From NCBI GenBank assembly GCA_947494195.1, contig CANLUC010000002.1, forward strand, positions 496,001 to 560,000: DNA of 64,000 nucleotides, in the 5' to 3' direction. The notes under the pieces were generated by a model. That model did not search any database. It saw only the letters and a program-made list of their open reading frames with translations, and was not told where the DNA came from. A program made the position numbers and the translations under genes. Shown here piece by piece: positions 32,794 to 42,144 of the stretch; position 1 is the first letter of the stretch, and every line of letters starts with the position of its first letter. This stretch comes from an uncultured Nesterenkonia sp. GTDB taxonomy: Bacteria > Actinomycetota > Actinomycetes > Actinomycetales > Micrococcaceae.

Positions 32794-35181
32794 GTGAGCG
32801 AAGAGCGCAGTCACCATGACGTCATCCGCGTGGTCGGGGCGCGGGAGAACAATCTCAAGGGATTCAGTCTTGAGATCCCCAAACGGGCGCTGACAGTCTT
32901 CACCGGGGTCTCCGGCTCGGGGAAGTCCTCGCTGGTCTTCGGCACGATCGCCGCCGAATCCCAGCGGATGATCAATGAGACCTACAGCGCGTTCCTGCAG
33001 GGATTTATGCCCAGCCTGAACCGTCCGGATGTCGACGAGCTCCAGGGGCTGACCGCTGCGATCGTGGTGGACCAGGAACGCCTCGGTGCCAATGTGCGCT
33101 CCACCGTCGGCACCGTCACCGATGTCTACACGCTGCTGCGGATCCTCTTCAGCCGCGTCGGGGAACCGCATATCGGCTCACCTCAGGCCTTCTCCTTCAA
33201 CGTGGCGAGCATGAGCGGAGCCGGTGCCGTGACCTTCGAGCGCGGCGGGGAGAAGACCAGGGAACGCCGGGAGTTCAGCATCACCGGGGGCATGTGCTCC
33301 CGCTGTGAGGGGCGCGGTCAGATCAATGACATCGATGTCTCCCAGCTGGTCGACGAGTCGCTCTCGCTCAACGCCGGCGCGATCACCGTGCCCGGCTATA
33401 AGGCCGGCGGTTGGTCGGTGAAGTTCTACGCCGAATCAGGATTCTTCGATCCTGACAAGCCGGTGCGGGACTACACCGCGCAGGAGCGCCATGATCTGCT
33501 CCATCGGGAGGCGGAGAAGGTCAAGATGAGCGGGGTCAACATGACCTATCAGGGCCTCGTGCCGCAGGTGCGCAAGTCAATGCTCTCCAAGGACCGTGAA
33601 GCCATGCAGTCCCACATCAAGGCCTTCGTGGACCGGGCAGTGACCTTCGTGACCTGCCCCGAATGCAACGGAACGCGGTTGAGCGAGCTCACCCGCTCGG
33701 TCACAGTTCAGGGAATGAACATCGCCGAGGTCTGCGCCATGGAGCTGAGCGATCTCGCCGACTGGCTGCGCACCCTGGATGAACCGGGAGTGGCCCCGCT
33801 GCGCAACTCTTTGTTGGAGACGGTGGAGCACTTCGTCGAGATCGGCCTGGGGTATCTGAGCCTGGACCGGCCTGCCGGGACGCTCTCCGGTGGTGAGGCG
33901 CAGCGGGTGAAGATGATCCGCCACCTCGGCTCGGCACTGACCGACATCACCTATGTCTTCGACGAGCCCACCATCGGGCTGCACCCGCATGACATCGCGC
34001 GGATGAACCAGATGCTGCTCCGCCTGCGGGACAAGGGCAACACCGTCCTGGTGGTGGAGCACAAGCCCGAGACCATCGAGATCGCCGATCATGTGGTGGA
34101 CCTGGGGCCTCGCGCCGGGGAGGACGGCGGCGAGCTGTGCTTCGAAGGCGCCGTGGCGGACCTTCGCCGGGCCGATACGCTGACCGGCCGGCACCTGGAC
34201 TATCGCGCGCAGGTCAAAGACCGAGTGCGCAAGCCTGACGGGGTGATCGAGGTCCGCGGGGCGCAGGCCAACAATTTGCAGCACGTGGATGTGGACATCC
34301 CCACCGGCGTGCTCACCGTGGTCACCGGTGTCGCCGGCTCCGGCAAGTCCACGCTGATCGAGGGCAGCCTGGCAGGGCGCGAGGGTGTCGCCTTCATTGA
34401 TCAGACCGGGATCAAGGGATCCTCCCGCTCGAACCCGGCAACCTACACGGGACTGCTCGAACCCATCCGCAAGGCCTTCGCCAAGGCCAACGGCGTCAAG
34501 CCTGCGCTGTTCAGCGCAAACTCCGAAGGCGCCTGCCCCAGCTGCGGCGGAGCTGGAGTCATCTACACCGAACTGGGCGTGATGGAGACCGTGGCGAGCC
34601 CCTGCGAAGAGTGCGAAGGCCGGCGCTTCCGCAATGAGGTGCTCGAGTACACCCTGGGCGATGCGCAGAGCGGGGCACACGGCGAAGGAACGGCGCTGAA
34701 CATCAGTGAGGTGCTCAACCTCTCAGTGGACCAGGCGCTCGAGTTCTTCGCCCTCGGCGCTGCTCGGCTGCCCGCCGCCACGAAGATCCTGACCCGGCTG
34801 AGCGACGTCGGGCTGGGCTACCTGCGGCTGGGGCAGCGGCTTAACACGCTCTCCGGCGGTGAGCGCCAGCGCATCAAGCTCGCCACCAAGATGTCAGACC
34901 CCGGCGGGGTCTATGTGCTCGACGAACCCACCACCGGGCTGCACCTGGCGGATGTGGAGAACCTGCTCGCCCTGCTCGACCGGCTGGTCGACTCCGGGAC
35001 CTCGGTGGTGGTGATCGAGCATCATCAGGCGGTGATGGCCCATGCCGACTGGATCATCGACCTGGGACCCGGAGCAGGCACCGACGGCGGCCGCGTGGTC
35101 TTCACCGGCACGCCGGGCGATCTCATCTCCGCGGCCTCCACTCTCACCGGAGAGCATCTGGCGCGCTACGTGGCCGGGTGA
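32794..35181 (+). CDS. Short UvrA-like ABC ATPase (UvrA2/DrrC type)
   Basis: A 795-residue twin-ABC protein. Walker A motifs are [13 protein letters not shown] near residue 38 and [11 protein letters not shown] near 515. Signatures are [11 protein letters not shown] and [11 protein letters not shown], with Walker [14 protein letters not shown] and [13 protein letters not shown]. Zinc-finger cysteines are present in [24 protein letters not shown] and CEECEGRR. Housekeeping UvrA is about 950 residues; the missing part corresponds mainly to the UvrB-binding and insertion domains. Related short proteins (DrrC, UvrA2) give drug or DNA-damage tolerance. A role in repair or self-protection is inferred. 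Start GTG 32794. The 3' end overlaps modB by 38 bp, convergently. Confidence 0.88.
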
Positions 35182-35941
35182 TCCCGATGACCACCACCGC
35201 CACCAGGATGAGCAGCACAGACAGCGCGACGGCGGCGTCGGGGTCGGTCTCACGCTGCAGGTAGATCTCCAGCGGAAGCGTCCGGGTGACGCCCTGCAGG
35301 CTGCCGGCGAAGGCGATGGTCGCGCCGAACTCCCCCAGTGATCGAGCGAAGGCGAGCACGACCCCCGAGGCCAGCCCCGGGATGATCAGCGGCAGCACGA
35401 TGCTGCGCAGCAGCTGGGTCGGACCGGCACCGTCGACGACGGCGGCCTCCACCACCTCCTTCTGCACCCCGCGGATCGCGGCCTCCACGGCGATGACCAT
35501 GAAGGGCAGCGAGACGAAGGTCTGCGCGAGCACCACCGCGGCCGTGGAGAACGCGACCTGCACACCGAGGATCTCCAGGCTCTGCCCCAACAGTCCCTGC
35601 CGCCCGAAGGTGGTCAGCAGCGCGATGCCGCCGATGACCGGGGGCAGCACCAGCGGCAGCAGGATCAGCGTGCGCAGCGCCCCACTGCCTGGAAACCTGA
35701 ACTGGGCGAGCATCAATGCCAGCGGGACCCCGAGGATCACACACAGCACCGTGGAGAGCAGCGCGGTGCGCAGGCTCAGCCAGAGCGCAGCCAGCGCGCT
35801 GGGGGAGCTCAGCAGCGAGGGAAGCTGCTCAAGATCGACTCGGGTCAGCAGTGCGACGATGGGAAGCAGGATGAACAGGGCCCCGAGCGCGGCGGGGAGC
35901 AGGACCCAGCGCGGCATGATCACTGTGGGTCCCCGGCTCAT
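35144..35941 (-). CDS. modB: Molybdate ABC transporter permease
   Basis: A 265-residue inner-membrane permease. The EAA loop ([20 protein letters not shown]) and the ending [15 protein letters not shown] followed by TLPLEIYL are typical of ModB. It follows modA with a 4-bp ATGA overlap. No modC ATPase follows: the 3' end runs into the convergent UvrA-like gene. The ATPase must be elsewhere or shared. Confidence 0.9.
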
Positions 35942-36741
35942 TCAGGGTCTCCCGGGGAGAATCCGGCCTCACGCAGCGTCCGCTGTCCGGCCTCGCTGAG
36001 CAGAAAATCGATGAATTCCCGGGCGGCGGCTGGCTGCGCGGAGTCCTGCAGCACGGCCGCGGGGTAACGGTTGGGATGGGCCTCGGCCCCCTCGATCTCC
36101 ACGGAGTCCACCTGATCTCCTGCGCGGAGAACGTCCGTGGAGTAGACCAGCCCGGCGTCGGCCTCTGCGCTGCTGACCTTGCCTAGCACATCGGTGACCG
36201 CCAGCTCCTCGCTGACCGGGGACAGCGTGACCCCAGCGGCGTCGGCGGCCTGCACGGCCGCCGCGCCACAGGGCACCTGCTCGGCGCAGACCACCAGGGC
36301 GGGGGAAGAGCCGGAATCACCTCCGGGGGAGGTGTCGAGATCCTGCAGCGATCGGATCTGTGCCGGGTTGCCGTCCGGGACCGCGATCACCAAGGTGTTC
36401 GTCGCGATGCGCCGGGCAGGCGGTGAGATCAGCTCGGCCGATGCGGCGCGTTCCATGGTCTGCTCATCAGCGGGGATGAACACATCGGCCGGCGCCCCCT
36501 GCTGAAGCTGGGCCAGCAGCCCCGCCGAGCCTGCTGAGCTGATCTCCACGTCCACTCCGGATGCGGCCTCGTAGTCATCGGCCACTGCGGTCACCACCTC
36601 ATCCAGGGAGGCGGCGGCGAAGACCGTGACCTGGGCTGCTGAGGCTTCCTCCTCGGTCCCTTGGCCGTCGGCGCTCGGAGCTGAGGCACAGCCTGGGAGA
36701 ATCAACAGCGCCGCTGCAAGGAGTCCGGCTGAGCTGCGCAT
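35938..36741 (-). CDS. modA: Molybdate ABC transporter substrate-binding lipoprotein
   Basis: A 267-residue binding lipoprotein with lipobox ILPGC. The mature part shows the ModA pattern [42 protein letters not shown] broken by usual loops, AEQVPCGAA (ModA family motif) and [10 protein letters not shown]. It binds molybdate outside the membrane. ATG 36741 is chosen because it starts the signal peptide. It is divergent from the aminotransferase and lies next to a molybdopterin oxidoreductase gene. Confidence 0.9.
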
Positions 36742-36767
36742 AGGGGTTGAGTCTATAGGCTGGATGG

Positions 36768-37964
36768 ATGTTGCCTTCGAAGAGATCACAGGTGCCCGGT
36801 TTCGAAGTGATGAGCATTCTGGGCAGGATCGACGCCATGCGCGCCGAGGGCCGAGACGTGATCTCGCTGACCGCGGGGGAGCCCGGCTCCGGAGCTCCCG
36901 CGGGGGTGAACCAGGCTGCGGCGAAGATCCACGCGCAGAACACCGTGTTGAACTACACCGCCGCGATGGGGATCATGCCGCTGCGGGAGGCGATCGCTGA
37001 GCACTACCAGCGCTGGTACGGGATCAGCGTGCCGGTGCAGCGCATCGCCGTGACCACAGGCTCCTCGGGCGCCTTCATGCTCAGCTTTCTGGCGGCCTTC
37101 GACCCGGGGGACCGCGTGGCTCTCGCACGACCCGGCTACCCGGCCTACCGCAACATCCTCACCGCCCTGGGCATCGAGGTGGTGGACCTCGACTGTGGTC
37201 CGGCGGAGCGCTTCCAGCCCACGGTGGCGCAGCTTGAGGCCGAGCGCCGTGAGGGCGGGCTCGCCGGGGTCATCCTCGCCTCGCCGGGGAACCCCACCGG
37301 CACCATGATCGACCGCGAGAAGCTGACCGCGCTCTCCGGCTGGTGCGCAGAGCATGAGGTGCAGCTCGTCAGCGATGAGATCTACCACGGCATCAGCTTC
37401 GGCGCCGAAAACGTCAGTGCCCGTGAGGTCGACGCACGTGCGGTGGTCATCTCCTCGTTCTCCAAGTACTGGGGGATGCCCGGCTGGCGCCTGGGCTGGA
37501 TGGTGCTGCCTGAGCATCTGGTGGACCCGGTCTCCAGACTCGCCGGCAATATCGCCCTGTGCCCTCCGCATGCCACGCAGCTGGCCGCAGTGGAGGCATT
37601 CACCCCTGCCTCGCTGAGCTTCGCCGCCGGTCAGGTCCAGGGCTACGCGGCGGCGCGCGAAGTGGTGCTCAGCCAGCTCGACGAGCTGGGGTGGGGCGAG
37701 GTCGCCCCGGCCGACGGCGCGTTCTATGTGTACGCGCATCTCGGGACACAGCTCGACCGGTTCGGGGATTCGGCGGACTATTGCAGGGCGCTCCTGGAGG
37801 AGGTCGGTGTGGCCATCGTGCCCGGCACAGATTTCGATCCGGTGGCAGGCGGCCAATGGGTCAGACTGAGCCTGGCGCCCGGAGCGCCCGCGGTGGCGGA
37901 GGGCATCCGAAGGATTCTGCGGTTCCAAGCGGGCCACCGTGCCCAGCCTGACCGGATCAGCTGA
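36768..37964 (+). CDS. PLP-dependent aminotransferase (class I/II, aspartate aminotransferase-like)
   Basis: A 398-residue fold-type I aminotransferase. The substrate-binding N-terminus contains DVISLTAGEP. Later come ILASPGNPTGTMIDREKL, DEIYHGISFG and the PLP lysine in SSFSKYWGMPGWRLGW, then the C-terminal Arg in WVRLSLAPG. It resembles the general aspartate/aromatic aminotransferase subgroup; the amino donor cannot be fixed. It is divergent from modA by 26 bp and overlaps the convergent oxidoreductase by 8 bp. Confidence 0.88.
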   Translation: MLPSKRSQVPGFEVMSILGRIDAMRAEGRDVISLTAGEPGSGAPAGVNQAAAKIHAQNTVLNYTAAMGIMPLREAIAEHYQRWYGISVPVQRIAVTTGSSGAFMLSFLAAFDPGDRVALARPGYPAYRNILTALGIEVVDLDCGPAERFQPTVAQLEAERREGGLAGVILASPGNPTGTMIDREKLTALSGWCAEHEVQLVSDEIYHGISFGAENVSAREVDARAVVISSFSKYWGMPGWRLGWMVLPEHLVDPVSRLAGNIALCPPHATQLAAVEAFTPASLSFAAGQVQGYAAAREVVLSQLDELGWGEVAPADGAFYVYAHLGTQLDRFGDSADYCRALLEEVGVAIVPGTDFDPVAGGQWVRLSLAPGAPAVAEGIRRILRFQAGHRAQPDRIS

Positions 37965-39594
37965 CGCTGAATTCGATCCGATGATGTCCCGTGGCGGAAC
38001 CCGGAATCGAGTCCCGGCGCTCGCCCGACTGGACTTCACCCTCGGCGTTCGTCGCGCGCACCGTGACGGAATGGCGTCCCGAGTCGACATCCGCGAAGGT
38101 GTGCTTCCACTGCCTCCAGGTGTCATCGGTGACCTGTTCAGCCAGTTCAGCCGACTCCCAGTCGCCGTCGTCGAGGCGGACCTCGACGGTCTCGACGCCG
38201 ACGTGCTGGGCCCAGGCGCTGCCCGCCACGACGAGCTCCTCGCCCGGCACCTCGGCCAGCGGCCGCGGAACATCGATGCGCGAGGCGACCAGGACCGGTC
38301 CGCGTTCATTCCAGCCGCGGTCGGTCCAGTAAGCGGTCTGTTCATCGAAGCGGGTGAGCTCCAGCTCGGTGACCCATTTCGTGGCGGAGACGAAGCCGTA
38401 GAGGCCGGGAACCACCAGTCGGGCGGGGTAGCCATGCTGAGCGGGAAGGGGCTCGCCGTTCATGCCGACCGCGACCAGGGACTCGCGGTCCTCGTCGGTG
38501 AGCACCTCCAGCGGGGTCGACGCCGTCCAGCCGTCCACGGAGCGGGAGAGCACCATGTCGGCGTCGCCCGTGGGACGGGCTCGGGCGAGCAGCTCGCGGA
38601 TGGGGTAGCCGAGCCAGGTGGCGTTGCCGACGAGGTCGCCGCCGACCGGGTTCGAGACACAGGTCAGGGTCACGTGGTGCTCGACCAGCGGGAGTTCGAG
38701 GAGCTCTTCCATCGTGATGGTGACCTCTTCCTCGACCATGCCGTGGATGCGCAGCGACCAGTCCTCCGGGCTCAGCTCGGGGACCGCGAGCGCGGTGTCG
38801 ATCCGATAGAAGTTGTCATTGGGTGTGATGAACGGCGGCATGCCCTCGACACCGATGCTGGCCGCATCGGGGATGGCGGCGGCCTGTACGGCGGGGGAGG
38901 GGAGCATCGTCTTCGCTGCGGCCTGCCCCACGTCCTGTCCGAACGCGTTGACCGAACGGCCGAAGGCGATGGAGCCTGCAGCAATGGCGGTTCCAGCCGC
39001 AGCGAGGCCGATGAATCGGCGTCGTGAATGGGCAGACTCTTCCGCGCGGGAGCGAGATGAGCGGGTCTCCACAACCTCTGCGTGAGATCCCTCGTCCCGT
39101 GGGCGCAGCCAGCCGGTGGCGGCGCCGCTGAGCAGCAGCAGAGCGAGCAGTCCCAGCACCGCACCGATGAGCGTGGGCAGGGCGTCTACCGCCGAATTCT
39201 CCGGGCGGACCAACACCGCTGCCAGCAGGATGAGAGCGACGAGGCTGAAGGCACCCAGTGCGAGCTTCATGCGTGAGCGTGCAAGCACCCCGATCATTGC
39301 GGCGACGACGGCGCCGACCACGCCCATGCTGATGTAGAGCACCAGTTTGTCGTTGTTGCCGAAGGCCGAGATGGCGAACTCCTGCAACCAGCTCGGAGAG
39401 AGCCTGATGACCGCGGAACCGAGCGCCACGAGCGTGGAGGAGGTCGGCCCGAAGAGGCGGGACACAAGGTCTGCCACCCCGAGGAAGATGGCTGCTGCGA
39501 GAACGCCGGCCAATGCGTGGGGGACCAGACGCAGCAGTCGCTGGCCCGCGCCGTAGTGGGCCTGATCTGGGTGCTTGCGTACGGTCTGTGTCAT
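37957..39594 (-). CDS. Membrane-anchored molybdopterin-dependent oxidoreductase (sulfite oxidase family)
   Basis: A 545-residue protein. The first 160 residues hold about five membrane helices. A Ser/Arg-rich linker with RRRFIGLAAAG follows, then an external catalytic domain. The Mo-ligand Cys is in TLTCVSNPVGGDLVGN, followed by WLGYPIRELL and GYPARLVVPGLYG, as in the sulfite-oxidase fold. The C-terminal dimerisation domain (residues about 450-545) is Ig-like. Substrate unknown. A SigK-type promoter ends just before the ATG, so the mRNA is probably leaderless. Nearby modAB would supply molybdate. Confidence 0.9.
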   Translation of the reverse strand: MTQTVRKHPDQAHYGAGQRLLRLVPHALAGVLAAAIFLGVADLVSRLFGPTSSTLVALGSAVIRLSPSWLQEFAISAFGNNDKLVLYISMGVVGAVVAAMIGVLARSRMKLALGAFSLVALILLAAVLVRPENSAVDALPTLIGAVLGLLALLLLSGAATGWLRPRDEGSHAEVVETRSSRSRAEESAHSRRRFIGLAAAGTAIAAGSIAFGRSVNAFGQDVGQAAAKTMLPSPAVQAAAIPDAASIGVEGMPPFITPNDNFYRIDTALAVPELSPEDWSLRIHGMVEEEVTITMEELLELPLVEHHVTLTCVSNPVGGDLVGNATWLGYPIRELLARARPTGDADMVLSRSVDGWTASTPLEVLTDEDRESLVAVGMNGEPLPAQHGYPARLVVPGLYGFVSATKWVTELELTRFDEQTAYWTDRGWNERGPVLVASRIDVPRPLAEVPGEELVVAGSAWAQHVGVETVEVRLDDGDWESAELAEQVTDDTWRQWKHTFADVDSGRHSVTVRATNAEGEVQSGERRDSIPGSATGHHRIEFSVS

Positions 39595-39601
39595 GTCTGC
39601 T

Positions 39602-39629
39602 ATTCGGAGCGGAGGGGGATGCTGGATGG
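39602..39629 (-). promoter_or_regulatory. SigK-type promoter for the molybdopterin oxidoreductase
   Basis: On the minus strand, CCATCC (39629-39624), a 16-base spacer and CCGAAT (39607-39602) match the mycobacterial SigK consensus as I recall it. A start about 7 bases downstream falls at the ATG (39594), implying a leaderless mRNA. Confidence 0.7.
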
Positions 39630-39648
39630 GGGATCCAGCGAAAGATTT

Positions 39649-40500
39649 TCAGAGTTCGGCGAGGAGCACCGGCTCGGTGGTGGGCGCGTCGGAGCCTCCG
39701 GCCGGCTCGACCGTCACGCCGAAGGTCATGCCCTCGTCCATGGGTGCGCCGGTGATCATCTCCGCACGGGTGCCGCTCATCAGCCCTGCGCTGCGTGGAC
39801 CGGCCTCGTCGATCAGCCAGAGCTGCATGGTCTGGTCCTCAGGCAGCTCAGGCATGTCATGCGGGGTCAGGTGCAGCATCTGCTCGGAGACCGAGTAGGC
39901 CAGCGTCACCCGCCCGCCCACGGTCGCCTCGGCCTCGGTGAAGGAGAGGTCAGAGGCGGCGAGAAGTCGCTCGGCGCGCTCAGCCTCGGCCTGCGCCACG
40001 GTCAACGACTCCTCCATCTCTGTGGTGTCCTGCTGCTGGTTGACCAGCACGCCCGCCAGCGCCGCCGAGAGCAGGAGCAGCGTGGAGGCGGCAAGCGCGA
40101 AGAGCGTGGTCACCGGCTTGCGGCGCCGAGTCCGTCGTCCCGATTCAGGCGCGGCGGCGGACTCGCCGCTGGTCGCCGGCACTGGGCCGCCGGTCTGCCC
40201 GTCAGAGCGCGACGCGCTGTGACGCTCGGGTGCAGAGTGCGCTTGCGAATCCTGGTGTCGCTGCGATGTCGGTCGCTGCTGTTCCAGCCGAGGGATCGCC
40301 AGAATGCTGGCTTCAACCTCGGCGCTGGGCGCGATGGCGTCATCGGATTCGGCCAGCAGACCCATCGTCTCGCGGAAGGACTGCACCTCTTCGGCGAACT
40401 CCGGGTCCGTGGCTTCGAGGGCGCGAGCCTCGAGCAGCTCGGCCTCGGCGAGGGTCCCCAGCGCGCAGCCGGCTGCCAGGTATTCACGATCGGCGTTCAT
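39649..40500 (-). CDS. rskA: Anti-sigma-K factor, RskA family
   Basis: A 283-residue single-pass membrane protein. Residues 1-75 form the cytoplasmic anti-sigma domain (YLAAGCALGTLAEAELLEARAL). A charged linker leads to the one membrane helix (LFALAASTLLLLSAALAGVLV, positions about 147-167). The outside part is the RskA domain (MQLWLIDEAGPRSAGLM, FGVTVEPAGGS). RskA holds SigK inactive until cleaved by regulated proteolysis. It overlaps sigK by 4 bp (ATGA). Confidence 0.92.
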   Translation of the reverse strand: MNADREYLAAGCALGTLAEAELLEARALEATDPEFAEEVQSFRETMGLLAESDDAIAPSAEVEASILAIPRLEQQRPTSQRHQDSQAHSAPERHSASRSDGQTGGPVPATSGESAAAPESGRRTRRRKPVTTLFALAASTLLLLSAALAGVLVNQQQDTTEMEESLTVAQAEAERAERLLAASDLSFTEAEATVGGRVTLAYSVSEQMLHLTPHDMPELPEDQTMQLWLIDEAGPRSAGLMSGTRAEMITGAPMDEGMTFGVTVEPAGGSDAPTTEPVLLAEL

Positions 40501-41093
40501 CCGGCACCCCCTAGCTGGGCTCTGAGTCTCTGCATTCCGTCTCGGATTCGAGACTTCACGGTTCCCAGCGGCACTTCGAGCCGTCGGGATATCTCGGAAT
40601 GAGACAATTCCTGATAGTAAGCCATCGCAATTGCGGTGGCCTGGTCCTCTGGAAGGGCACGAAGCGCTGTCTGTGCGCGGTCGGCCTCCACCTGGGTCAG
40701 GACCGAGTCCTGGACGTCCGGTTCATACGCGTGTGCCTCCTTCACCCCCTGGGTGAAGTCTCTGTTTTGCTGAGCCTGCACGGCGCGGACCCGGTCGATG
40801 GCCCGTCGACGACATATCGTGGTCAGCCAGGCCCTGCCGCTTCCAGCCTGGGGCCGGTAGCTGTGGCAGTTGACCCAGACCTCGGTGAAGATCTCCTGAA
40901 GAACTTCCTCGGCGAGGGATCTATTCCGCAGCACGCGCAGCGCCGTCGCCAGGAGGATGGAACTCTGCTCCCGGTACAGCTGCTCGAAGGCCTGTTCATC
41001 GCCGCGCTGGATCCTCAGCAGGAGCTCTCGGCAAGAATCCGAGGAACCATGCACAGGCTCTCCGCCGTCAGCGGCTGAACCGGTGGTGCCCAT
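40497..41093 (-). CDS. sigK: ECF RNA polymerase sigma factor SigK
   Basis: An ECF sigma factor of about 198 residues. Region 2 contains AEEVLQEIFTEVWVNCHSY and region 4 the HTH ATAIAMAYYQELSHSEISRRLEVPLGTVKSRI. The linked RskA gene identifies it as SigK-like. Start choice is uncertain: ATG 41093 has GGGGA upstream; ATG 41102, ATG 41108 and GTG 41159 are in frame. It should recognise CCATCC/CCGAAT promoters, two of which lie in this locus. No such site is visible before sigK itself. Confidence 0.9.
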   Translation of the reverse strand: MGTTGSAADGGEPVHGSSDSCRELLLRIQRGDEQAFEQLYREQSSILLATALRVLRNRSLAEEVLQEIFTEVWVNCHSYRPQAGSGRAWLTTICRRRAIDRVRAVQAQQNRDFTQGVKEAHAYEPDVQDSVLTQVEADRAQTALRALPEDQATAIAMAYYQELSHSEISRRLEVPLGTVKSRIRDGMQRLRAQLGGAG

Positions 41094-41116
41094 GTCATGC
41101 ATCCCCATAGGATGCC

Positions 41117-41132
41117 ACACCCCGGGGGGTGT
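41117..41132. promoter_or_regulatory. Inverted repeat upstream of sigK
   Basis: ACACCCC and GGGGTGT face each other across 2 bases just upstream of the likely sigK start. A second small inverted repeat (TTCACC/GGTGAA) is at 41162-41177. Either could be an operator; nothing more can be said. Confidence 0.35.
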
Positions 41133-41183
41133 CTTCTGCATCCACACCGCACCGTCCACACTTCACCTCGGGGTGAAAGAGCA

Positions 41184-41232
41184 ATGGCGGCACCGGCACC
41201 CTGTCCCGCAGGTGGGTGCCGGACGCCGCCAT
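41184..41232 (-). terminator. Strong stem-loop terminator after the fasciclin gene
   Basis: A perfect 9-bp inner stem (41193-41201 with 41214-41222) is extended, after a small bulge, by a perfect 8-bp outer stem (41184-41191 with 41225-41232). On the minus strand it lies 66 bases after the fasciclin stop and is followed by a T-rich TGCTCTTTC. It separates that gene from sigK. Confidence 0.75.
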
Positions 41233-41298
41233 CGCTCATCACAGTGCGTTGATCACAACGCGTCAGGAACGGTCAGCAGCGACCGCGCCCGGTGCGGA

Positions 41299-42039
41299 TC
41301 ACTCTTCTGCTGCCGCAGGCATCATGACGGCGTCCACCATGTAGACAGTGGCGTTGGCGGTCTGGACGCCGCCGCAGACGAGGCCTGCGTCGTCGAACAT
41401 CAGGTCTTCGCCTTCGCCCTCGATGGTCACGGTCGCGCCGTTGACGGTCTCGTGCTCACCGGCGATCTCATCGGGGGACATCTGGCCCTCGATCACGTGG
41501 TAGGTCAGCACGTCGGTCAGCATGTCGGCATCCTCGACCACTGCGTTGAGGTCTTCCTCAGGGATGGCTGCGAACGCATCATCGGTGGGGGCGATCACGG
41601 TGAACTCGCCGCCGTTGAGGGTGTCGACGAGATCAACATCGGGGTTCAGCTCGCCGGAGACTGCCGAGGTCAGCGTGGTCAGCATCGGGTTGTTCGAGGC
41701 TGCGGTGGCCACTGGATCTTCGGCCATGCCGCCGACTGAACCGGCGCCGTCGGGAACTTCCTCGGCGTAGGCCTCACAGGAAGCGCCGACCAGGCTGGCC
41801 GCGGGATCGGACTCGTCCATGGACTCTTCATCCATCGGCTCTTCCGACTCCATGGACTCCTCGTCCATGGGCTCGGACTCCTCGTCCATCGGAGCCTCTG
41901 ACTCCATGGTCTCTTCGTCTGACATCTCCGCGCCGGTGTCCTCGGCGGGCTCCTCGGAGTCGCCGCAGGCGGTCAGGCCCAGCAGGGCGACCATTCCGAT
42001 TCCCAGCAGGGAAGTTGTCTTGCGCATCTCGGTCTTCAT
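41299..42039 (-). CDS. Fasciclin (FAS1) domain lipoprotein, MPT70/83-like
   Basis: A 246-residue surface lipoprotein with lipobox GLTAC. The mature N-terminus is an acidic low-complexity stretch with repeated MDEES and MESE units (about residues 35-75). The FAS1 domain covers about 100-245 (LTTLTSAVSGELNPDVDLVDTL split by loops, FTVIAPTDDAFAAIP, VLTYHVIEGQM, VYMVDAVMMPA). In mycobacteria the FAS1 proteins MPT70 and MPT83 are SigK targets, and here too a SigK-type promoter is upstream. ATG 42039 is chosen because AGGAGA lies 9 bases upstream. Confidence 0.92.
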   Translation of the reverse strand: MKTEMRKTTSLLGIGMVALLGLTACGDSEEPAEDTGAEMSDEETMESEAPMDEESEPMDEESMESEEPMDEESMDESDPAASLVGASCEAYAEEVPDGAGSVGGMAEDPVATAASNNPMLTTLTSAVSGELNPDVDLVDTLNGGEFTVIAPTDDAFAAIPEEDLNAVVEDADMLTDVLTYHVIEGQMSPDEIAGEHETVNGATVTIEGEGEDLMFDDAGLVCGGVQTANATVYMVDAVMMPAAAEE

Positions 42040-42117
42040 GGCTGAATCTCCTGTTGATCGCACTTTGGTCTAGGGCATGACATCTGATCGTTGTCTCAAC
42101 CAGGTCATGTGCTTAGA

Positions 42118-42144
42118 GTTCGGAGCAACCTCAGGATCGGATGG
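42118..42144 (-). promoter_or_regulatory. SigK-type promoter for the fasciclin gene
   Basis: Minus-strand CCATCC (42144-42139), 15-base spacer, CCGAAC (42123-42118). It closely matches the promoter before the molybdopterin oxidoreductase. A transcript from about 42111 would have a 70-base leader. Confidence 0.65.

Follow-up and report, generated by a model that had tools for sequence, protein, structure and literature searches.

A putative SigK regulon in Nesterenkonia pairs a fasciclin lipoprotein with a membrane molybdoenzyme, possibly as an envelope defence against oxidation

Why would one sigma factor drive both a fasciclin lipoprotein and a molybdopterin enzyme? A 64,000-nt stretch (hereafter the window) of the 2.78-Mb genome of an uncultured Nesterenkonia sp. 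(GCA_947494195.1, contig CANLUC010000002.1, positions 496,001 to 560,000) raises this question, as it contains all four genes of a cluster transcribed, in the same direction on the minus strand, in the order fasciclin (FAS1) lipoprotein, sigK, rskA and a SUOX-type membrane molybdopterin oxidoreductase (hereafter molybdoenzyme; Table 1). The SigK–fasciclin link is already known from mycobacteria. Genes, promoters, conservation, linkage and the composition and spacing of the linkers described below were read from DNA sequence. SigK-type promoters conserved across relatives support the proposal of the initial annotation that SigK drives both the fasciclin and the molybdoenzyme genes. The two proteins probably act in one process, and we give a probability of about 0.42 to the full explanation, an envelope system directed against oxidation.

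The pattern CCATCC-N15/16-CCGAAY, the SigK promoter consensus used in the initial annotation, has exact matches before the fasciclin gene and before the molybdoenzyme gene, on the strand and at the positions first annotated. In 100 dinucleotide shuffles of the window there were on average 0.02 matches, and in none were there two. A whole-genome scan, a check already proposed with the annotation, returned three matches, compared to none for a reversed control pattern; permitting CAATCC as well added no sites, and a search for sigma-70-type promoters between 37700 and 42300 found none. Among the 18 Nesterenkonia loci with a molybdoenzyme (window counted, named duplicates L096–L103 excluded), 17 have an exact site in front of the molybdoenzyme gene and L044 has one with a single mismatch; the fasciclin promoter is exact in 15, with CAATCC in the other three. 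In 39 loci from other Micrococcaceae genera, C[AC]ATCC-N15/16-CCGAAN was present before 29 of 35 fasciclin genes and 14 of 27 adjacent SUOX genes, versus 6 of 1020 random 560-nt windows, which were drawn from loci that in some cases contain real sites.

Table 1. Features of the sigK cluster (positions within the window)
Feature	Position	Strand	Basis
SigK-type promoter of the fasciclin gene, CCATCC-N15-CCGAAC	42118..42144	-	motif search
Fasciclin (FAS1) lipoprotein gene	41299..42039 (longest reading to 42063)	-	PF02469 E 2.9e-24; lipobox LTAC
Met/Glu-rich linker, lipobox Cys to FAS1 part	41809..41964	-	7 Met in 52 residues (translation)
Fasciclin–sigK gap, very stable hairpin without T-run	41160..41298	-	-85.2 kcal/mol, z -6.7
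sigK (ECF sigma factor; start position uncertain)	40497..41159	-	Sigma70 r2 + r4
rskA, anti-sigma-K factor	39649..40500	-	PF10099 RskA_C E 1e-22
SigK-type promoter of the molybdoenzyme, CCATCC-N16-CCGAAT	39602..39629	-	motif search
SUOX-type membrane molybdopterin oxidoreductase	37957..39594	-	PF00174 E 8e-45

The regulator belongs with the SigK/RskA pairs (group ECF19 of the extracytoplasmic function (ECF) sigma factors): a SigK-like sigma gene adjoins an RskA_C gene, and SigK-type promoters stand before its own cluster and the FAS1 gene. Its best NCBIfam model is the SigK model NF007228 (182.9 bits, under the cut-off of 226) and its best PDB match SigK itself (4nqw). With a lipobox and a FAS1 domain behind a SigK-type promoter, the fasciclin protein can be classed as MPT83-like; its gene is the only PF02469 gene of the genome and the molybdoenzyme gene the only PF00174 gene, both at the sigK locus. 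The likely start of the fasciclin gene is the ATG at 42039, which is preceded by AGGAG and lies 78 nt from the −10 hexamer. Since all four genes point in the same direction, transcription from the fasciclin promoter could continue through sigK–rskA. The hairpin in the gap between these genes, for which a terminator search gave no terminator call, is a possible partial terminator or attenuator, and it may keep the ratio of fasciclin to SigK high.

The molybdoenzyme mRNA had initially been read as leaderless, and the position of the promoter supports this reading well. The ATG (39594) lies 7 nt past the −10 hexamer, and all 18 Nesterenkonia loci have an ATG at 7–8 nt (in L052 the reading frame behind it is broken). 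Ribosome-site-like sequences (GGAG, AGGA or GAGG within 20 nt of the ATG) were found for 2 of 16 molybdoenzyme genes (L044 and L052 unscored; for L043 the score refers to an ATG that lies 5 nt too early), compared to at least 31 of 47 fasciclin genes, a lower bound in that the script sometimes picked a second ATG. Together, the register of the ATG and the rarity of ribosome sites support leaderless molybdoenzyme transcripts as a trait that would extend throughout Nesterenkonia. We limit this claim to the genus, because none of the 14 SUOX genes of other Micrococcaceae genera behind such a promoter had an ATG 7–8 nt past the −10, with a GTG close by in some. Many fasciclin leaders outside Nesterenkonia (L062–L094) contain a conserved TGACAGCCC box about 6–7 nt past the −10. 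A structured RNA in the fasciclin leader was considered and dropped, RNAalifold having yielded no pairs on 17 selected leaders.

To what extent do the two targets travel together? Matches were present in 45 of 149 family genomes; six of the loci were Nesterenkonia and the other 39 made up our sample of other genera. The order FAS–SigK–RskA–SUOX occurred in 23 of these (and once more with RskA undetected) and SUOX–FAS–SigK–RskA in three; FAS–SigK–RskA without SUOX was seen in seven, the same with FAS reversed in one, and SigK–RskA only in four. Across the class, 162 of 296 genomes had SUOX homologues (E ≤ 1e-70). In 40 SUOX loci picked by hand, mostly high-scoring, from 39 of these genomes, FAS lay beside SUOX in 16. 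In 11 of these SUOX was followed by FAS, SigK and RskA, all on its strand, and the other five had FAS only; SigK/RskA stood on the opposite strand in one locus. A looser motif (N14–17, first base free) preceded SUOX in 10 of the 40, namely in 9 of the 16 loci with FAS versus 1 of the 24 without. Within the genus, 18 of 30 Nesterenkonia genomes had SigK (E ≤ 1.4e-64), FAS and SUOX, nine had none of them and three had one only: G027 SigK, G028 FAS and G008 a divergent SUOX, the latter two genomes being only 82% and 65% complete. Of the 18, G015 has a broken SUOX, and the segments matching sigK contain a stop codon in both G015 and G022. As judged from gene content and order, the cluster recurs in other Micrococcaceae genera and, in rearranged form, in further families belonging to the class. 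The SigK–fasciclin–molybdoenzyme pairing is common and not obligatory, because some relatives keep a SigK–fasciclin unit without a SigK-driven molybdoenzyme. A prediction that the unlinked SUOX genes of such genomes would carry SigK promoters failed: the exact motif occurred in none of 11 unlinked SUOX loci (two from Nesterenkonia genomes, one from a genome whose sigK has no FAS beside it) and a one-mismatch motif in one (L257).

The initial annotation had described a compact regulon, and the two promoters at the locus stand; its confinement to the locus does not. The third genomic site (L004) lies upstream of a sortase-anchored protein that we call CHRD-like, a label of our own for a protein to which no Pfam family was assigned. 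It carries a GVDTG sorting signal and adjoins a class F sortase-like gene (161.5 bits versus a cut-off of 166; Pfam Sortase above cut-off). Summed over the 30 Nesterenkonia genomes there were 128 exact sites, compared to five for the reversed control, and many of the 128 may be due to chance. From those outside the main locus we picked 23 by eye in which the spacer ends in GCT, GTT or ACT before CCGAAY, and for 20 of them a member of a recurring family lay directly downstream: ten CHRD-like proteins, five lipoproteins of about 460 residues, four small membrane proteins (a family grouped by eye) and one FAS; L179, L268 and L269 had no such gene. Adding L004 of the window genome and L055 brings the CHRD-like proteins to 11 and the lipoproteins to six. 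This second lipoprotein family (L178, L055, L056, L184, L194) has a Met/Asp/Glu-rich linker and a domain predicted as two helical repeats, unrelated to FAS1; three members were scanned without a Pfam family above cut-off, and no PDB fold matched at E ≤ 0.001. In L055 and L056 it lies directly before a sigK paralogue, which is the position of FAS in the window. Judged by sequence, the regulon is real and extends past the locus, and a SigK regulon with the fasciclin, molybdoenzyme and CHRD-like genes as members is very probable. A tiny, probably single-transmembrane protein of 81–101 residues with a conserved tail ending in IGQFQ follows SigK-type sites in L180, L185, L189 and L196; that of L189, the one scanned, had no Pfam or NCBIfam match. 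Sigma-factor-like open reading frames that match region 2 only lie near CHRD-like targets (L004:6020-6493 on the minus strand, and G023:C32, with two matches in G023).

Both SigK-linked lipoprotein families carry polar linkers with spaced Met residues, an observation that is new here. We compared the 45 residues behind the lipobox Cys under one automatic strict rule, which 25 FAS proteins passed. Met made up on average 7.8% of these and 9.8% of five second-family lipoproteins, versus 1.4% (median 0) of 40 other lipoproteins of the same DNA, some of which are probably spurious open reading frames and of which the highest is a Met-rich lipoprotein of L201. The difference from these 40 was significant for FAS (Mann–Whitney, p = 1.7e-9) and for the second family (p = 8.6e-5), and enrichment persisted when the comparison was restricted to those 18 of the others whose linkers are of low complexity (p = 2.1e-6), all values that ignore relatedness among the sequences. 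In 51 of 53 FAS linkers of a wider set, Met reached 9.4% and Leu, Ile, Val and Phe were nearly absent; the FAS linkers contain no His. The Met residues are also kept apart. Gaps of 1–3 were absent from 16 Nesterenkonia linkers (19.5 expected) and occurred five times in 32 unique linkers of other genera (18.6 expected), counts reached by 0 of 2000 shuffles in either case, and gaps of 5–6 exceeded expectation, being matched by 0 of 2000 and 6 of 2000 shuffles, respectively. Nesterenkonia linkers hold near-repeats such as PMDEESM; those of other genera are Ser/Ala-rich and still Met-enriched, and outside Micrococcaceae the linkers have 1–8 Met (L255 was misread by the script). The L201 lipoprotein (L201:16988-17275, minus strand; G000:C1:316988-317275) is 95 residues long and consists, behind its lipobox, of just a Met/Glu-rich tail with the MDEESM units of the fasciclin linkers. 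It stands tail to tail with a gene for a Fur-like regulator (L201:16401-16886, named by eye), with no SigK motif upstream.

The molybdoenzyme has N-terminal helices, a sulfite-oxidase fold and a C-terminal part that is Ig-like by eye, and in an alignment of 30 homologues Cys312, Arg264, Tyr422 and the pair Arg191-Arg192 are invariant. The twin-arginine lies within a predicted helix after the earlier ones, directly before the last membrane helix. The same arrangement, N-terminal transmembrane helices with a twin-arginine directly before the last one, is found in the Sec/Tat-dependent Sco3746, for which, according to PMC5449189, the twin-arginine translocation (Tat) pathway is needed for assembly and the molybdenum-cofactor domain lies outside; the window family differs in lacking conserved transmembrane His residues for two b hemes. 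The AlphaFold model has a mean pLDDT of 78.8 and a pTM of 0.62, with residues 313–319 beside the Cys under 50. Its nearest solved folds in Foldseek are SorA (E 1.3e-23) and sulfite oxidases (~1e-23), the closest structures also including a Thermus sulfite dehydrogenase, and 1xdq and 1xdy, which we take to be MsrP/YedY, follow at 1e-9 to 1e-10 with fewer columns aligned. No equivalog cut-off was passed, neither that of MsrP (67.5 bits versus 207) nor those of the sulfite dehydrogenases (SorA 109.8/600, SoxC 101.9/420, SorT 74.4/570). An MsrP-like loss of the active-site Tyr of sulfite oxidases was considered and dropped, the Y236F entry 2c9x placing SorA Tyr236 at the invariant Tyr422. From fold and residues of the model, the substrate cannot be read.

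We propose the following mechanism, in which SigK control, leaderless start and topology are inferred from established knowledge. RskA would release SigK, and SigK–RNA polymerase would start transcription of the genes for the fasciclin lipoprotein, the molybdoenzyme (from a leaderless mRNA) and the CHRD-like protein; read-through into sigK–rskA would amount to positive feedback, which the hairpin downstream of the fasciclin gene might dampen. Anchored at the outer membrane surface of the cell's plasma membrane, the lipoprotein would present a flexible linker with well-spaced, easily oxidised Met residues. The molybdoenzyme, which Sec and Tat would insert so that its active site faces outward, would act beside it on oxidised sulfur. 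Its most likely activity on this account would be the reduction of methionine sulfoxide in the linker and in neighbouring proteins, which would turn the linker into a renewable oxidant sink, a cycle that we advance tentatively and hold to be somewhat unlikely as a separate claim. Region 4 of the window SigK contains no Cys (translation, comparison with 4nqw), so the mycobacterial thiol switch cannot operate here and the signal would presumably be sensed through RskA. Concerning such a signal, PMC8965627 describes that ultraviolet (UV) light lowered the abundance of an RskA in Nesterenkonia sp. Act20 and recovery restored it, and its authors propose a coordinating role of SigK in the response to UV. 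Act20 RskA is 82% identical to that of the window in the best tblastn segment; 'fasciclin' and 'molybd' are absent from the main text of that proteome study.

Several results weigh against this explanation. In the other genera, the motif is missing before 13 of the 27 adjacent SUOX genes and 6 of the 35 FAS genes, and eight loci have SigK–FAS clusters without an adjacent SUOX, their genomes all having SUOX elsewhere without the exact SigK motif. The FAS linkers of these eight are Met-rich too (6.0–6.8%), for which reason we dropped the rule that Met-rich linkers occur only beside SUOX. Some linkers outside Micrococcaceae have a single Met (L232, L235, L240, L254), and the neglect of relatedness in the Met statistics counts here too. 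As for the enzyme, Cys312, Arg264 and Tyr422 match sulfite oxidase residues (SorA Arg55, Tyr236), and by sequence and fold it is nearer SorA/sulfite oxidase than MsrP, partly due to the shared C-terminal part. A profile search found no protein of PF01794, presumably the family holding MsrQ, in the genome, where the same search finds matches in E. coli, and in the 30-homologue alignment none of the His residues in the part before residue 230 is invariant, or close to it, as a heme ligand should be. Neither result supplies a candidate electron donor for the molybdoenzyme. The absence of PF01794 lowered our estimate for the full explanation, which had stood at 0.45, to 0.42, and by similarly small steps those for the methionine-sulfoxide cycle and for the proteobacterial counterpart discussed below, and slightly raised that for a sulfite dehydrogenase. 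Of the cooperation between fasciclin and molybdoenzyme that had been suggested from the start, the link is upheld by conserved promoters, by clustering and by shared occurrence or shared loss across the genus. As for redox repair, it is plausible and unproven, the active site being nearer to sulfite oxidases than to MsrP.

The molybdoenzyme could instead be a membrane sulfite dehydrogenase, or oxidise another sulfur oxyanion, with SigK governing a sulfite or sulfur-stress regulon; the fasciclin protein, serving at the surface or in adhesion, would then have only its regulator in common with the enzyme. We regard this as a serious possibility, if short of probable. The nearest solved structures, the three invariant active-site residues and the missing MsrQ-type protein all fit it, and with SorA and SorT the enzyme shares the fold, the Cys ligand, the active-site Tyr and one Arg. 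The second Arg is missing, as the Arg of CSGNSR in SorA has no counterpart in CVSNPVGG of the molybdoenzyme; the enzyme also has an N-terminal membrane domain and scores far under the SorA, SoxC and SorT cut-offs, there was no cytochrome among eight neighbourhood proteins scanned, and Met-rich linkers would be left unexplained. Alternatively, both envelope proteins might be needed in the same stress and not cooperate directly, with the linker Met a by-product of low-complexity repeat expansion. The PMDEESM-type near-repeats and the SigK–FAS clusters without SUOX would be expected in this case; we consider it unlikely, given that Met is enriched also where the linkers are Ser/Ala-rich, as in other genera, and in a lipoprotein family of unrelated domain, and that SUOX and FAS occur together in two gene orders. 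A metal-stress regulon in which the linkers bind copper(I) or another metal is very improbable. Met-rich segments do occur in periplasmic copper proteins, with MxM or MxxM spacing as the copper motif, and this is the spacing that the linkers avoid, gaps of 1–3 being depleted and His lacking; we rejected copper chelation on these grounds. That the promoter matches are chance occurrences unrelated to SigK is practically negligible, as contradicted by their rarity in shuffles and genome and their conservation in relatives.

One of the nearest known comparisons is the mycobacterial SigK–RskA system (mpt70/mpt83; ECF19). It shares the SigK/RskA pair, a FAS1 lipoprotein target and a conserved promoter; in the window FAS1 lies next to sigK, and the second target is a molybdoenzyme. 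According to PMC7509140, Actinobacteria share strongly conserved SigK sites, the mpt70 promoter is recognised by SigK orthologues, and M. tuberculosis SigK has a redox disulfide, Cys133-Cys183. This disulfide is absent from the window SigK and need not be a trait of the whole group. The closest match in logic is ECF16 (SigF/BcrS, with MrpX/BcrX), in which an ECF sigma/anti-sigma pair likewise drives a Met-rich envelope protein and a molybdoenzyme of the sulfite oxidase superfamily; in Brucella, as PMC8315932 describes, BcrS controls genes for a Met-rich peptide and for MsrP/MsrQ homologues with a part in resistance to hypochlorous acid. The likeness is one of outline: here the ECF group is another, the Met-rich linker belongs to a lipoprotein where ECF16 systems have a small peptide, and the enzyme is more sulfite-oxidase-like and membrane-anchored, with no MsrQ-type protein found. 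It is conceivable, if doubtful, that SigK regulons are an independent actinobacterial counterpart of proteobacterial MrpX/MsrP, in which SigK-driven surface lipoproteins, some of them related to the FAS1 antigens MPT70/MPT83, would have gained Met-studded tethers that act as renewable oxidant sinks, their methionine sulfoxide being reduced outside the cell by a new heme-less, Sec/Tat-inserted branch of the sulfite-oxidase family.

The molybdoenzyme partner, its conservation and the Met-studded tethers look new. Among the matches listed, our literature search gave no description of a fasciclin and a molybdoenzyme together under SigK, and prior mention is possible; a 2008 study by Veyrier reportedly deals with the evolution of the SigK regulon. 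Partner and tethers suggest a concrete role, as a renewable oxidant sink or in surface sulfur redox, for which a soil or salt-loving bacterium could serve as a model of SigK–fasciclin proteins. The partnership is kept in many relatives and may shield the cell surface from oxidative damage or mend it; if the envelope explanation is true, these Gram-positive bacteria would possess their own extracytoplasmic pathway for methionine repair. Near the cluster, at 35144-36789, lie ABC transporter genes that are modA/modB-like by eye (binding protein, permease), and ModA is also found near the cluster in L037, L038, L039, L041, L043 and L048.

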